Source: Anaeromyxobacter sp.
Lineage (GTDB): Bacteria; Myxococcota; Myxococcia; Myxococcales; Anaeromyxobacteraceae
Direction of reading: 5' to 3'
NCBI GenBank assembly: GCA_025360965.1
Contig: JANYBC010000259.1
Coordinates: forward strand, 1-50,594
Length of the DNA stretch: 50,594 nt
Under the pieces are notes generated by a model. That model was not told the DNA's origin and did not search any database. It worked only from the letters and a program-made list of their open reading frames with translations. A program made the translations under genes and the position numbers. This document shows positions 2,996-43,327 of the stretch, in pieces. Positions within the stretch are counted from its first letter, which is position 1. Each line of letters opens with the position of its first letter.

Positions 2996-3544
2996 TCACT
3001 CCCTCTCCTTCATCACCCAGCGCTGCGCCATCCCGGCGGCGAAGGCGAAGCATGCGCCGAGGGTGCGGAAGACCTCCTCGACGACGCGCACCGTCCGCCC
3101 GTCGAGGCCGGCCACCCCGCCGTAGGCGTCGGTGGCGTCGAGCCCCGTGGCGCGCCAGGCGCGGGAGAGCAGCAGGAAGCCGGTCACCGCCAGGGCACCG
3201 GAGGCCACGCTGGTGAGGGCGTTGACCCAGGGCGTCCGCTCCACCATCGCGGCCAGGCCGCTGGCGCTCGGCCCCAACCGGATCCGGCCAGGCACCAGGA
3301 CCAGGTAGGAGGCCGCCAGCAGCAACCAGCCCGAGCGCAGCGGCTCGCCGGGCTCGAAGGTGAGCGCCGCCACCAGCGTGCCGCCAGCGGCGAAGAGATA
3401 GAGGGCGATGGCCCAGCCGAAGTAGGCGCCGGCCAGCGACACCGGCTCGTGGACGGAGAGGGCGAAGAGGGCCGGGAGCGGGCCGATGGCCAGCGCGCCG
3501 AGCGCCAGCGCCTGGAGGCGGAGCTTCCGCCTGGGGTGGTTCAT
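2996..3544 (-). CDS. Hypothetical integral membrane protein
   Basis: 182 residues from ATG 3544. Hydrophobic stretches at roughly residues 11-29, 38-60, 70-85 and 105-125, plus a short one near 160-175, suggest four to five membrane helices. A basic start (MNHPRRKLRLQ) would keep the N-terminus in the cytoplasm. No family is recognised. It is the last gene of a minus-strand group: its ATG overlaps the stop of the upstream small gene (ATGA), so the two are probably translated together. It converges with hslO, with 30 bases between stops. Confidence 0.6.
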   Translation of the reverse strand: MNHPRRKLRLQALALGALAIGPLPALFALSVHEPVSLAGAYFGWAIALYLFAAGGTLVAALTFEPGEPLRSGWLLLAASYLVLVPGRIRLGPSASGLAAMVERTPWVNALTSVASGALAVTGFLLLSRAWRATGLDATDAYGGVAGLDGRTVRVVEEVFRTLGACFAFAAGMAQRWVMKERE

Positions 3545-3804: not shown

Positions 3805-4161
3805 TCACTCGACGAGGAAGTCGAGCGCTTCCTGGCGGGATCGGAAGGCCCGGGTCTGTTGCTCGCCAGTGGCCTTCAGGTAGGCGTTGAAGAAGATGAT
3901 CTTGAGGCCGCTGATCCCGATGAGCGACGAGCGGCCGATGAGCCGGCTGTTCTGACGGCCCACCTGCTTGACGCGCTTCATGAAGGCGCTCCCGATCACC
4001 GAGCCCTCGAAGTCGTTGTAGAGGAGCGCGGGATGGAGCAGCGCCTGCATCATGGCGCTGCCAGCCTCGAGCGTGGCGATCAGCTCGGCGTCCGACCGCT
4101 GGCCGCGGTAGTCGAAGAAGAGGACCTGGCGCCCGCCATGTTCGATCCAGCTCGCCGGCAT
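3805..4161 (-). CDS. STAS/SpoIIAA-like small protein
   Basis: 118 residues from ATG 4161. The fold signature is an N-terminal beta strand (RQVLFFDYRGQ), a helix, then LLYNDFEGSVIGSAFMKRVK and a later hydrophobic strand GLKIIFFNAY. This resembles the small STAS or SpoIIAA-like proteins that often accompany signalling genes; assignment is by pattern only. It starts 9 bases after the stop of the sensor-GGDEF-haemerythrin gene and is almost certainly co-transcribed. A regulatory partner role for that protein is plausible. No serine-phosphorylation motif can be assigned with confidence. Confidence 0.55.
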   Translation of the reverse strand: MPASWIEHGGRQVLFFDYRGQRSDAELIATLEAGSAMMQALLHPALLYNDFEGSVIGSAFMKRVKQVGRQNSRLIGRSSLIGISGLKIIFFNAYLKATGEQQTRAFRSRQEALDFLVE

Positions 4162-4170
4162 GGGGACATC

Positions 4171-6444
4171 CTACCCCCTCCCCGCCGGAGCGTGGAGGGG
4201 CCGGGCCGGGGTCCGGACCTGGACCAACTCCGGGATCGCAGCAGCGTCCTGGGCGGCGGCCTGGAGGAGGAACTGACCGAACTGGAGGTCGTGCTCGATG
4301 ATGTGGAGCCGGAACCACTCGGGCAGGCGCCCCACCGACCAGCGCCGGAACGAGACGGTGACGCCCGACTGCCCGAGTTCGGCGAGCAGGCGGAGCGCCT
4401 CGCTGGTGAAGCGGGCGTGCTCCCCGGCGTGGCGCACCCGGTCCGGGTGGCGGTGGGCGTTCATGAGCCGCTCCTCGTGGCGGAAGTGCGCGCCGGTTGA
4501 AGCCAGGATCGACTCGAACGCGACCTCGACCTCCTCGCTCCTCCCCGTCGGGATCATCTCCGCGAACGAGTTGATGGCCTCGCTGAGCGCCCGGTGCTCC
4601 ACGTCGATGGGTTGGTACCCGGTCGCGGCGTAGATCGACGACCCGTCCAGCATGGGCCGCACCGGGGCCGCCTCCGGGGCGCTGGCCGCCAGCACGTCCG
4701 CCACGCTCACCTCGCCGCACTCCACCCGGTTGCGCCCACCGCTCTTGGCCCGGTAGAGCGCCTCGTCGGCCCGGTGGAGGAGCGTCTCGGCCGTGTCGGA
4801 GGGGAGCAGCTCGGCCACGCCGAAGCTCCCGGTCATCCGTCCGGCCGGGCCCAGCGCGGTGGCCGCCATCAGGGAGCGCAGCTTCTCGGCCAGCGTCACC
4901 GCGCCTGTGGCCGGCGTGGACGGCGCCAGCACCACGAACTCCTCCCCCCCGAGGCGCCCGACGGTGTCGGAGTCCCGGACGTTGACCTCGACGAGCCGGG
5001 TGACGCCGACCAGCACCTGGTCGAGGAGGGCCGGGAGCGCTTCCCGCTCCTGGTTCGCCGAGGTCGGCCCGAAGCTGGCGCCAACCACCTTCTTGCTCCA
5101 GAGGGGACGGTTCTCCTGGCCCTCAGCGTTCGAGAGGATGACCCGGCCCTCGGCCGTGACCAGGTAGGCGACGTCGACCCCGCCCGGTCCGAGCTGCGCC
5201 TTGCCCAGGTTGCTCTTGACTACCGCCACCGCCACCACCTGCCCGTCGGCGCTCCTGACCGGCTCGCTGGCATAAAAGCCTGGGATGTTGCTCACGATCC
5301 CCACGCCGAGGAAGCGGCCGGAGCGCCCGTGAAGCGAGTCCTTGATGTAGGAGCGGCTGGCGAAGTTTTTCCGCAGGAAGCTGTCCGGCCGGCCTCGGTT
5401 CGAGGACGAGATGACCCGGCCGGTCGGGTCGATCACGTAGACCACCCAGTCTTCCGAGGCGAGCGCCATCGAGTCGACCACCTCGTCGAGCCGGGAGAGG
5501 TCGATGGCAGCCCCCGCGACATGGAAGTGGCTCAGCAGTTCGGCCATGGTTCTGGCGCCGCCGTTCGCCTTGCTCATCTTGTCGGTCAGGTGGCCGTAGA
5601 TCTTGGAGGCCGACGCCTCGGCCTCGTCGATGACGTCCTTCTCGTGCAGCGTTCCCAGCCGGTCGGTGAAGAGCCAGCCGCCGGCCAGCAGGCCGGTGAG
5701 GGCGGCCGCCATCGCCCAGAACTGGAGCCGCTTCTTGCCGACGATCGTCACGCTCCGGTCGAAGGAGGCGGCCAGCGCCCAGACCGAAAGCGCCATCATG
5801 CAGACCGTCGCCCCTCGCAGGAGCTCGATGGGAATCCCGGTCTGCGCCAGGAGGGCCTCTCCCGAGGGCCAGTGGACCGGGATGAATGGGGCGCTCGGCA
5901 CCACCAGCCCGGCGGTCACGCCGAAGAGCGTGAAGTAGATGCTCGCAAGGATACGGGCGCGCTGCGCGTCCAGCCCGCCGCCCGACTCCTCGGTGTGCCG
6001 GGCGGCGAAGAGGAAGAGCCAGGCGGTCCAGAAGATGGCAGGCGCGGCGATCAAGGGCCGCACCGCCGAGATGACGTACCCGGGGCCGTGAGCCAGCCCG
6101 AGGGCCAGCACCGCGCCGCTCGGCAGGAGGTGGAGCCAGCGTCCCGGCGTCCGCCCGTGCAGCACCCGGTGTGTCCGGCGGGCGAACTCGAGCAGCAGCA
6201 GGAAGCTCGCTCCGAGCAGCAGGTCTCGCGCCAGGCGGAAGGCCGTCGAGTCGCCGCCGATCAAGGCGACCAGGTGCAGCCACTCCGCCAGACCGTGGGT
6301 GAAGGCGAAGGCGCCGAGGAGCCACCAGGGCGTCGCGAGCGAGGTGGTCCTCGAAATCGAGACGCAGACCGCGCCCAGCAGGAAGAAGACCAGCCCGTAG
6401 AAGAAGTAGATGTAGTCGAGCTGCGCCAGCAGGGTGTTGGTCAT
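4171..6444 (-). CDS. 8-TM sensor / PDC-like / half GGDEF / haemerythrin fusion protein
   Basis: 757 residues from ATG 6444; the frame stays open to 6639, but the membrane domain begins right at this ATG. Residues 11-260 hold about eight TM helices. Residues 265-460 look like an extracytoplasmic PDC/dCache sensor (VVYVIDPTGRVISSSNRGRP, then FASRSYIKDSLHG). A GGDEF segment covers about 476-575 with the signature GGEEF at 499-503 and DEALYRAKSGGRNRV. The C-terminus (610-730) is a bacteriohaemerythrin with di-iron ligands H617, H653, E657, H672, H676, H714 and D719 in canonical spacing. The first half of GGDEF (the D-LTGL-NRR and DIDHFK-N regions, with a metal-binding Asp) and the TM helix expected between sensor and GGDEF are absent. 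The join lies near residues 468-477, genome about 5015-5045. As read, it cannot be an active cyclase; the intact ancestor would link oxygen or redox sensing to c-di-GMP. Confidence 0.85.
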   Translation of the reverse strand: MTNTLLAQLDYIYFFYGLVFFLLGAVCVSISRTTSLATPWWLLGAFAFTHGLAEWLHLVALIGGDSTAFRLARDLLLGASFLLLLEFARRTHRVLHGRTPGRWLHLLPSGAVLALGLAHGPGYVISAVRPLIAAPAIFWTAWLFLFAARHTEESGGGLDAQRARILASIYFTLFGVTAGLVVPSAPFIPVHWPSGEALLAQTGIPIELLRGATVCMMALSVWALAASFDRSVTIVGKKRLQFWAMAAALTGLLAGGWLFTDRLGTLHEKDVIDEAEASASKIYGHLTDKMSKANGGARTMAELLSHFHVAGAAIDLSRLDEVVDSMALASEDWVVYVIDPTGRVISSSNRGRPDSFLRKNFASRSYIKDSLHGRSGRFLGVGIVSNIPGFYASEPVRSADGQVVAVAVVKSNLGKAQLGPGGVDVAYLVTAEGRVILSNAEGQENRPLWSKKVVGASFGPTSANQEREALPALLDQVLVGVTRLVEVNVRDSDTVGRLGGEEFVVLAPSTPATGAVTLAEKLRSLMAATALGPAGRMTGSFGVAELLPSDTAETLLHRADEALYRAKSGGRNRVECGEVSVADVLAASAPEAAPVRPMLDGSSIYAATGYQPIDVEHRALSEAINSFAEMIPTGRSEEVEVAFESILASTGAHFRHEERLMNAHRHPDRVRHAGEHARFTSEALRLLAELGQSGVTVSFRRWSVGRLPEWFRLHIIEHDLQFGQFLLQAAAQDAAAIPELVQVRTPARPLHAPAGRG

Positions 6445-6760: not shown

Positions 6761-8245
6761 ATGCGGCTCACAGGGTACGATCGGCTCGACGCGCTCGGCT
6801 GTGGTGCGCTGGTCGCGAAGGGCGAGGTGTCCGCAGCCGAGCTGCTGGAGGCGGCGCTGGAGCGGGCCGACGCACGCAACCCGGCCCTCAACGCCATCGT
6901 CCACCGGGCCGACGAGGTGGCCCGCCGCCGTGCCGCCGGGACGCTGCCGGCAGGGCCGCTCAGCGGCGTCCCCTTCCTGATCAAGGACCTGTTCACGGCC
7001 TGGAAGGGCCAGCCCATGACCTTCAGCTCGAGGCTCGGCGCCGGCTTCCGGCCCGGCTTCGACTCGGAGGTGGTGCGGCGGCTCGAGGCGGCCGGGCTGA
7101 ACCTCTTCGGCACCACCAACGCCCCGGAGTTCGGCATCCTGGCCCACACCGAGCCGAAGCTCCACGGTCCCTGCCGGAACCCCTGGAGCCTCGACCACAC
7201 CCCGGGCGGCTCCTCCGGCGGCTCGGCGGCGGCGGTGGCAGCGCGCATCGTGCCCGCCGCGCACGGCAACGACGGCGGTGGCTCGCTGCGCATCCCGGCC
7301 TCCCACGGCGGGCTCTTCGGACTCAAGCCGACGCGTGGCCGCGTCTCCTTTGCGCCGGGCAGCGACGGCTGGGATGGGATGGCCTGCGAGGGTGTGATGA
7401 CGAGGAGCGTGCGCGACTCGGCCGCCTTCCTCGATGTCCTGGCCGGCCCGGTGGCCGGGGACACCTTCACGCCGCCCGCGCCGGCCCGCCCCTGGCTCGA
7501 GGAGGTGGGGCGGCCGCCGGGCAAGCTCCGCATCGCCTTCACGGAGGGCTCATTCTTCGGACGCACCACCCACGACGAGTGCCGGGCGGTGGTGCGCGAG
7601 GCGGCCGCGGCGCTGGCCGGGCTCGGCCACGAGCTGGTCGAGGACCGCCCCCCCTTCGATCGCGAGGCGATGGTCCGCGCCTACCTGGTGGTGGTGGCGG
7701 CCGGCGTCAGCGCCGCCGTCGACACCGCCTCGCGGCTGACCGGCCGCGCCGTCCACCAATCGCTCCTCGAGCCGGAGACGGTCGGACTGGCTGCGGCGGG
7801 TCGGACCTTCTCGGCCACCGAGCACGTGGCGGCCCTCGACACCATGCGCGCCTGGTCCCGGGAGATCGGCCCCTTCTTCGAGCGGTACGACCTGCTCCTC
7901 ACCCCCACGGTCGGCCAGCCGCCGGTCCGGGTCGGTGCGCTCCAGCCCAAGCCGCTCGAGGCGCTCGGGATCCGCTTGGCCGGTGCGCTCGGCAGCCGCC
8001 GCCTCCTCGACCTGATGTTTGCCGAGATCGGCGACCGCTCCTTCGAGGCGACCGGCTTCACGATGCCCTGGAACCAGACCGGCCAGCCGGCCGCCAGCGT
8101 CCCCATCCGCTCGACCCCCGACGGCCTGCCGCTCGGCGCCCAGCTGGTGGGCCGGTTCGGCGACGAGGCCACCCTCTTCCGCGTCGCGGCCCAGCTCGAG
8201 GTTGCCCGGCCCTGGGCGGGACGCACGCCCCCGGGGATCGGATAG
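6761..8245 (+). CDS. Amidase signature-family hydrolase
   Basis: 494 residues from ATG 6761, chosen because GGAGGT precedes it at 6752-6757 and the family N-terminus (YDRLDALGCGALVAKGEVSA) starts there. The Ser-cisSer-Lys triad is complete: K75 in FLIKDL, S151 in TPGGSSGGSAA and nucleophile S175 in NDGGGSLRIPAS. It hydrolyses a carboxamide to acid plus ammonia. The substrate is not predictable, and GatA is unlikely because gatB and gatC are absent and the C-terminal half differs. No signal peptide is seen, so it is cytoplasmic. It stands 62 bases before the phosphoribosyltransferase with no obvious pathway link. Confidence 0.92.
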   Translation: MRLTGYDRLDALGCGALVAKGEVSAAELLEAALERADARNPALNAIVHRADEVARRRAAGTLPAGPLSGVPFLIKDLFTAWKGQPMTFSSRLGAGFRPGFDSEVVRRLEAAGLNLFGTTNAPEFGILAHTEPKLHGPCRNPWSLDHTPGGSSGGSAAAVAARIVPAAHGNDGGGSLRIPASHGGLFGLKPTRGRVSFAPGSDGWDGMACEGVMTRSVRDSAAFLDVLAGPVAGDTFTPPAPARPWLEEVGRPPGKLRIAFTEGSFFGRTTHDECRAVVREAAAALAGLGHELVEDRPPFDREAMVRAYLVVVAAGVSAAVDTASRLTGRAVHQSLLEPETVGLAAAGRTFSATEHVAALDTMRAWSREIGPFFERYDLLLTPTVGQPPVRVGALQPKPLEALGIRLAGALGSRRLLDLMFAEIGDRSFEATGFTMPWNQTGQPAASVPIRSTPDGLPLGAQLVGRFGDEATLFRVAAQLEVARPWAGRTPPGIG

Positions 8246-9015: not shown

Positions 9016-12561
<3,546 letters not shown>

Positions 12562-12565
<4 letters not shown>

Positions 12566-22018: not shown

Positions 22019-22041
22019 CCGCTCGGGGTCCGGGCGAGCGG
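22019..22041 (+). terminator. Hairpin after selA
   Basis: CCGCTCG (22019-22025) pairs with CGAGCGG (22035-22041) around a 9-base loop, starting 4 bases after the selA stop. There is no T-run. It lies between the convergent selA and OmpR-type regulator genes, where a terminator is expected. Confidence 0.4.
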
Positions 22042-22119
22042 CTCCGATCGGCGAACCAGAGGCGTAGCTCAGCACCGCCCGACCCCCACCGCGCGGTCAA
22101 CGCTGAAGCCGTCCCGGCC

Positions 22120-42647: not shown

Positions 42648-43289
42648 ATGGCCCGACACCGCGACGAGCCGGGCTGGGAGGCGGCGCTGGCCGCGCAGCT
42701 GGCGAGCGGCCTGCTGCCGAGCGACGCCCGCTTCAACCGGCTCTTCGGAGAGCGGCTGGTCCCGCTGGCCGCCCTCCACTTCACGCCGGTGGCGGTGGCG
42801 GCGCGGGCCGCGGCCTGGTTGACCGCGGGTGGAGCGACCAGCGTTGCCGACCTCGGCGCCGGAGCAGGCAAGTTCTGCCTGGTGGGCGCGGCCGTGACCG
42901 GGGCCGACTACACCGGGCTGGAGGCGAGGCCAGGGCTGGTCGAGGTGGCCCGCGACGCCGCCCGGAGGCTCGGGCTCCCGGCCGCCCGCTTCGTGCAGGC
43001 CGACGTCCTGACCGCGCCGCTGGCCCGCTACGACGCCTTCTACGTCTGCAACCCGTTCGCGGAGGGAGAGGCCGAGCCGGATGAATGGCTCGACCCGGTG
43101 CTCCCGGCGCCCGACAAGATCGCTGCCGCCACCGCCCTCGCTGCCCGGCTCGCGTCGGTGCCGGCCGGGACTCGCGTCGCGGTCCACTGCGGCCTCGGAG
43201 CTCCCATGCCCGACGGGTTTCGGTTGGTCTCGAGCGAGGCGATGGGGCGGCGGGGTGCGCTGCTCGAGTGCTGGGTGCGGCGCCGGTAG
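42648..43289 (+). CDS. Class I SAM-dependent methyltransferase-like protein
   Basis: 213 residues from ATG 42648, 7 bases after gloA. The SAM-binding motif I is [16 protein letters not shown], with acidic residue in [15 protein letters not shown] (motif II) and [25 protein letters not shown] (motif III/IV). The DAFYVCNPF stretch differs from the usual catalytic NPPY of N-methyltransferases. The substrate is unknown. It shares the gloA transcription unit, and 38 bases separate it from queF. Confidence 0.8.
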
Positions 43290-43327
43290 ACAGGACAGCC
43301 CTGGCCGGCCTGGTGTATTCCTCCCCC

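Follow-up and report, generated by a model that had tools for sequence, protein, structure and literature searches.

Does the cyclase-like gene at this locus record the loss of half a GGDEF domain in the organism, or a fault in its assembly? The gene lies in a 50,594-nt stretch of Anaeromyxobacter sp. DNA (hereafter, the window), taken from contig JANYBC010000259.1 of the draft assembly GCA_025360965.1, which comprises 259 contigs. From the letters of the DNA, the first-pass annotation had proposed that the encoded sensor runs straight into the second half of a GGDEF domain, skipping the N-terminal half and the membrane helix that should bring the chain back into the cytoplasm, and had left the choice between a real in-frame deletion and a consensus error. 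The features discussed below are collected in Table 1.

Table 1 Features of the cyclase locus and of the two lesioned genes nearby.
Feature	Position	Strand	Basis or remark
Deleted-form gene: 8 TM, dCache without its C-terminal part, back half of GGDEF, haemerythrin	4171..6444	-	ATG at 6444, 757 aa
Eight membrane helices, codons 1-255 (approximate end)	5680..6444	-	AlphaFold helices, hydropathy
dCache_1 match, residues 335-448, ending at profile position 188 of 240	5101..5442	-	Pfam
GGDEF second half, residues 475-573; RxxD (490-493) and GGEEF (499-503) present, N-terminal half absent	4726..5022	-	Pfam
Haemerythrin domain, residues 607-725, seven of seven iron ligands	4270..4626	-	NCBIfam, ligand alignment
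Deletion junction: D475 codon (5020-5022) within putative microhomology CGACCA; orthologues have 441 bp (147 codons) more here	5018..5023	-	
Membrane-protein gene, in-frame loss of ~90 codons near 3131-3145 by comparison with G003 and weaker family homologues	2996..3544	-	No Pfam match
Pseudogene of a histidine kinase, without its start region; GAF deletion of ~260 codons near 11622, nonsense codon TAG (12176-12178), 3' end diverging beyond ~12525	10961..12562	+	Compared with G003

First, the domain content of the window protein was compared with that of its orthologues. The GGDEF profile of Pfam is matched only from position 56 to 161, versus 1-161 in the orthologues of genomes G003, G004 and G016, in agreement with the proposed absence of the N-terminal half. 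The dCache match ends at position 188 rather than at 238-239 as in the same three orthologues, and the loss thus includes the C-terminal part of the sensor, a point that the first-pass annotation did not contain. This dCache_1 match (PF02743, profile 71-188) scores 34.8 bits, below the gathering cut-off of 45, and does not amount to a whole domain, versus 53 bits over profile positions 4-238 in G004. The remaining GGDEF half retains the GGEEF signature and an RxxD motif (RDSD); this inhibitory site is common, but not universal, among diguanylate cyclases. Metal and GTP binding reside in the N-terminal half of GGDEF domains, with its DxLT..NR and D(L/I)DHFKxxND motifs. These are present in all orthologues and absent from the window protein, which therefore does not qualify as an active cyclase. 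By contrast with the cyclase domain, the haemerythrin was confirmed as fully ligated, with five histidines, one glutamate and one aspartate in place (H617, H653, E657, H672, H676, H714 and D719); it scores 64.2 bits with TIGR02481 (curated cut-off 51.75) and 22.4 with PF01814, slightly under the cut-off of 25.3. The AlphaFold model displays eight long helices at the N-terminus, in line with the 8-TM region that had been proposed, for which we found no Pfam family match. This N-terminal region (residues 1-255, with the Cache domain in some cases) is also seen in records from Omnitrophota, Nitrospirae, Sulfuricurvum and elsewhere (L020-L038); relatives sharing mostly this TM/Cache part were set aside in addressing the deletion.

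Among 195 genomes of the phylum, we found six orthologues (G003, G004, G008, G013, G016 and G018), and none in the family genera g3, g4 and g5. Orthologues of the same short form, which would have spoken against a lesion, were looked for in this set, but all six are of the long form. The distance from site A, on the sensor side, to site B, on the GGDEF side, is 147 residues in all five orthologues measured (G003, G004, G018, G016 and G013), where the first-pass annotation had named about 100 or more codons; the sixth, G008, is likewise of the long form, but lacks the GTxW motif at site A and does not enter this spacing. The missing residues comprise the C-terminal strands of the Cache domain, the ninth (return) membrane helix, a coiled linker, and the DxLT, NR and DLDHFKxxND motifs (with DIDHFK in place of DLDHFK in G018). 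By hydropathy, the return helix ranks first among the segments of each orthologue (for example, residues 520-538 of G003, mean hydropathy 2.77), and it is absent from the window protein, as had been claimed. Synteny between G003 and the window extends to both flanks of the cyclase gene, and nucleotide alignment places the flanking blocks 71 bp apart in the window versus 509 bp in G003. These data show that the deletion is present in the sequence, and that the sensor does run directly into the second half of the GGDEF domain, at D475; both the residue range 468-477 and the positions given for it by the first-pass annotation contain this codon.

We consider that the gene probably encoded a membrane-bound diguanylate cyclase, regulated by its sensor, until a recent and real deletion inactivated it. 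In the intact relatives, the 8-TM region and the periplasmic dCache domain would signal, by way of the ninth TM helix and the coiled linker, to a GGDEF domain in the cytoplasm, to which a C-terminal di-iron haemerythrin would add a redox or oxygen input in most cases. The loss of 441 bp between two short stretches of matching sequence would then have joined the sensor in frame to the back half of the GGDEF domain. Since the product is devoid of both the GTP/metal-binding half and the return helix, it would be expected to make no c-di-GMP, and its tail would end outside the membrane or be degraded.

How might such a deletion have occurred? The D475 codon is embedded in CTCCTCGACCAGGTGCTGGTCGGC. 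The window junction shares CTCCTCGACCA with site A of G004 and CGACCAGGTGCT with site B of G016, and because these two matches overlap in CGACCA, about 6 nt could derive from either side. We infer from this overlap a microhomology of ~6 nt at the junction, deduced from the relatives and not from the window's own ancestral site A. A search of the window junction region for direct repeats returned none, and two inverted repeats only. In the orthologues, the similarity between the two breakpoints at the 441-bp spacing is uneven (positions at least as similar, 0 to 0.20, at the best of 12 offsets), so that the case for microhomology comes from the junction matches and not from any strong repeat. 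The in-frame status of the deletion was also considered as a sign of selection, and rejected: in these GC-rich genes, 60-83% of the short direct repeats with a separation of 150-900 bp are spaced by a multiple of three, and an in-frame deletion therefore needs no selection.

A short overlap at the junction is also what one would see if the organism kept an intact gene of about 904 codons and the contig had been joined at this overlap across the missing 441 bp, as may happen in a draft assembly. However, ~6 nt is well below the usual assembly word lengths, and no other contig carries the missing piece: a 150-aa probe run against the whole assembly retrieved GGDEF paralogues only, at no more than 50% identity. 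The GC content of the missing segment in the orthologues is ordinary (69.6-71.0%). Two genes near the cyclase gene bear on this question. The stretch of ~90 codons missing from the membrane-protein gene is present in G003 and spanned by the weaker family homologues, and longer forms of the histidine kinase occur in other genomes. Losses of similar size in these two genes fit an assembly artefact, and the occurrence in a draft assembly of three neighbouring intragenic losses of ~270-780 bp, each of them in frame, argues against a dead cyclase gene: gap-closing in variable regions could be their source, and the fast-evolving genes that bear the lesions could also be those where strain variation misleads the assembler. 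On the other hand, the TAG of the histidine-kinase gene aligns with a glutamine in G003, and such a nonsense codon is inexplicable by skipped sequence. Furthermore, the colinear blocks shared by G003 and the window between 12.6 and 50 kb showed no intragenic gap of this kind, and about 25 other genes look intact on comparison, a rough count, as the automatic gene pick was approximate and some of the chosen frames spurious. Lesions in two nearby genes, one of them with a nonsense codon, among otherwise intact genes speak for a real, local decay of genes rather than for an assembly error. Formally, both a real deletion and a consensus error thus stand, as the first-pass annotation had left them, with a tilt towards the former; an artefact is possible, if doubtful.

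Does the remnant behave as a dead gene? The branch of the GGDEF C-terminal half is 0.267 long for the window and 0.276 for G003, in a tree of low backbone support (33-50), indicating that the remnant is not accelerated. A half-domain that evolves at the rate of intact copies suggests that the loss is either recent or not real: such a remnant without decay is in favour of an assembly artefact, and is also what a recent inactivation would give. The reading frame, otherwise open across 757 codons, counts against a dead gene. Together with the normal substitution rate and the retention of GGEEF, RxxD and all haemerythrin ligands, it would suit a functional short form: the fused protein would have been retained either as a sensor without catalysis or as a haemerythrin in the periplasm, tethered by the membrane region. 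However, none of the six orthologues is short, the Cache domain is cut as well, and decay affects nearby genes. In addition, the half GGDEF fold is poorly predicted by AlphaFold, with pLDDT values of 41-74 versus 82-92 (10-residue blocks) for the same region of G004, both being shallow-alignment models built from the same seven sequences. We therefore regard a functional short form as unlikely, and its most specific version, in which selection has kept a membrane-anchored, periplasm-facing haemerythrin and a single in-frame deletion has turned a cyclase into a non-catalytic di-iron sensor, as very unlikely.

The haemerythrin tail itself varies in the family. G004 and G016 combine a complete GGDEF domain and a haemerythrin in one protein, which the window copy does not, and the tail is absent from the G003 and G018 proteins, showing that it is variable. 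Two genomes, G018 (C450, L073) and G009 (C14, L088), encode stand-alone haemerythrins that closely resemble the C-terminal one of these cyclases, which suggests a fusion or fission of the tail. Such stand-alone members of the subfamily raise the question of whether the haemerythrin is made alone from an internal start, in which case deletion of the cyclase half would leave a working small haemerythrin. Indeed, codon 595 of the window gene is a GTG with a GGAGG 8 nt ahead of it, and G004 carries a GAGGA-ATG pair at the same linker. The same scan found no such pair in the linkers of G016, G013 and G008, however, and since start-like pairs are expected by chance ~0.11 times per 40 codons, the single pair of the window is weak evidence. 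This candidate start, at about chance level, was rejected, and separate production of the haemerythrin appears very unlikely.

The first-pass annotation had viewed the intact architecture as a rare oxygen-to-c-di-GMP switch. It is not new in kind: Bhr-DGC of Vibrio cholerae, characterised in 2012 (Schaller 2012, as reviewed in PMC9388753), is a diguanylate cyclase regulated by an N-terminal haemerythrin and ~10-fold more active when diferrous, and a survey of 56 architectures counted 22 N-terminal haemerythrin-GGDEF proteins (PMC4919030). Like Bhr-DGC, the intact family joins a haemerythrin to a GGDEF cyclase domain. Whereas the haemerythrin of Bhr-DGC is N-terminal and its cyclase active, that of the present family sits at the C-terminus of an 8-TM/dCache protein, and the window copy lacks half of the cyclase domain. 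The best sequence match of the window haemerythrin is DcrH of Desulfovibrio vulgaris (PDB 2AWC/2AWY), also a membrane receptor with a periplasmic region and a C-terminal haemerythrin, but its output is a chemotaxis (MCP) domain, as opposed to GGDEF in the intact family. Membrane diguanylate cyclases of the dCache-GGDEF type share the order dCache, TM helix, GGDEF with the intact orthologues, which add the 8-TM N-terminal region and the C-terminal haemerythrin; the window copy is a deleted version. The intact architecture (8 TM, dCache, TM, GGDEF, C-terminal haemerythrin) is a rearranged known theme, and the family looks like a two-input version of Bhr-DGC- and DcrH-like systems. Passages of the literature on hemerythrin, GGDEF and Cache did not contain this domain order, and we do not claim it as unreported. 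If the deletion is real, one lineage would have lost an oxygen- or redox-linked input to c-di-GMP, with the intact relatives as controls; these relatives offer a testable two-input sensor, whose tail is absent in two of them and has close stand-alone kin in two genomes. A domain scan would still label the window ORF a diguanylate cyclase, which calls for caution.

Other differences were observed around the locus. On the downstream side of the cyclase gene, after a gap of 9 bp, a 118-aa protein without Pfam or NCBIfam match is encoded at 3805-4161 (- strand); it was not found at those orthologue loci that were checked. The amidase gene at 6761-8245 (+ strand) has no counterpart at the syntenic position of G003, where the flanking blocks are 229 bp apart. 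Finally, G003 is longer than the window by ~2.8 kb at 22027-22118, a gene boundary in the window, and by ~3.8 kb at 43279-43324.
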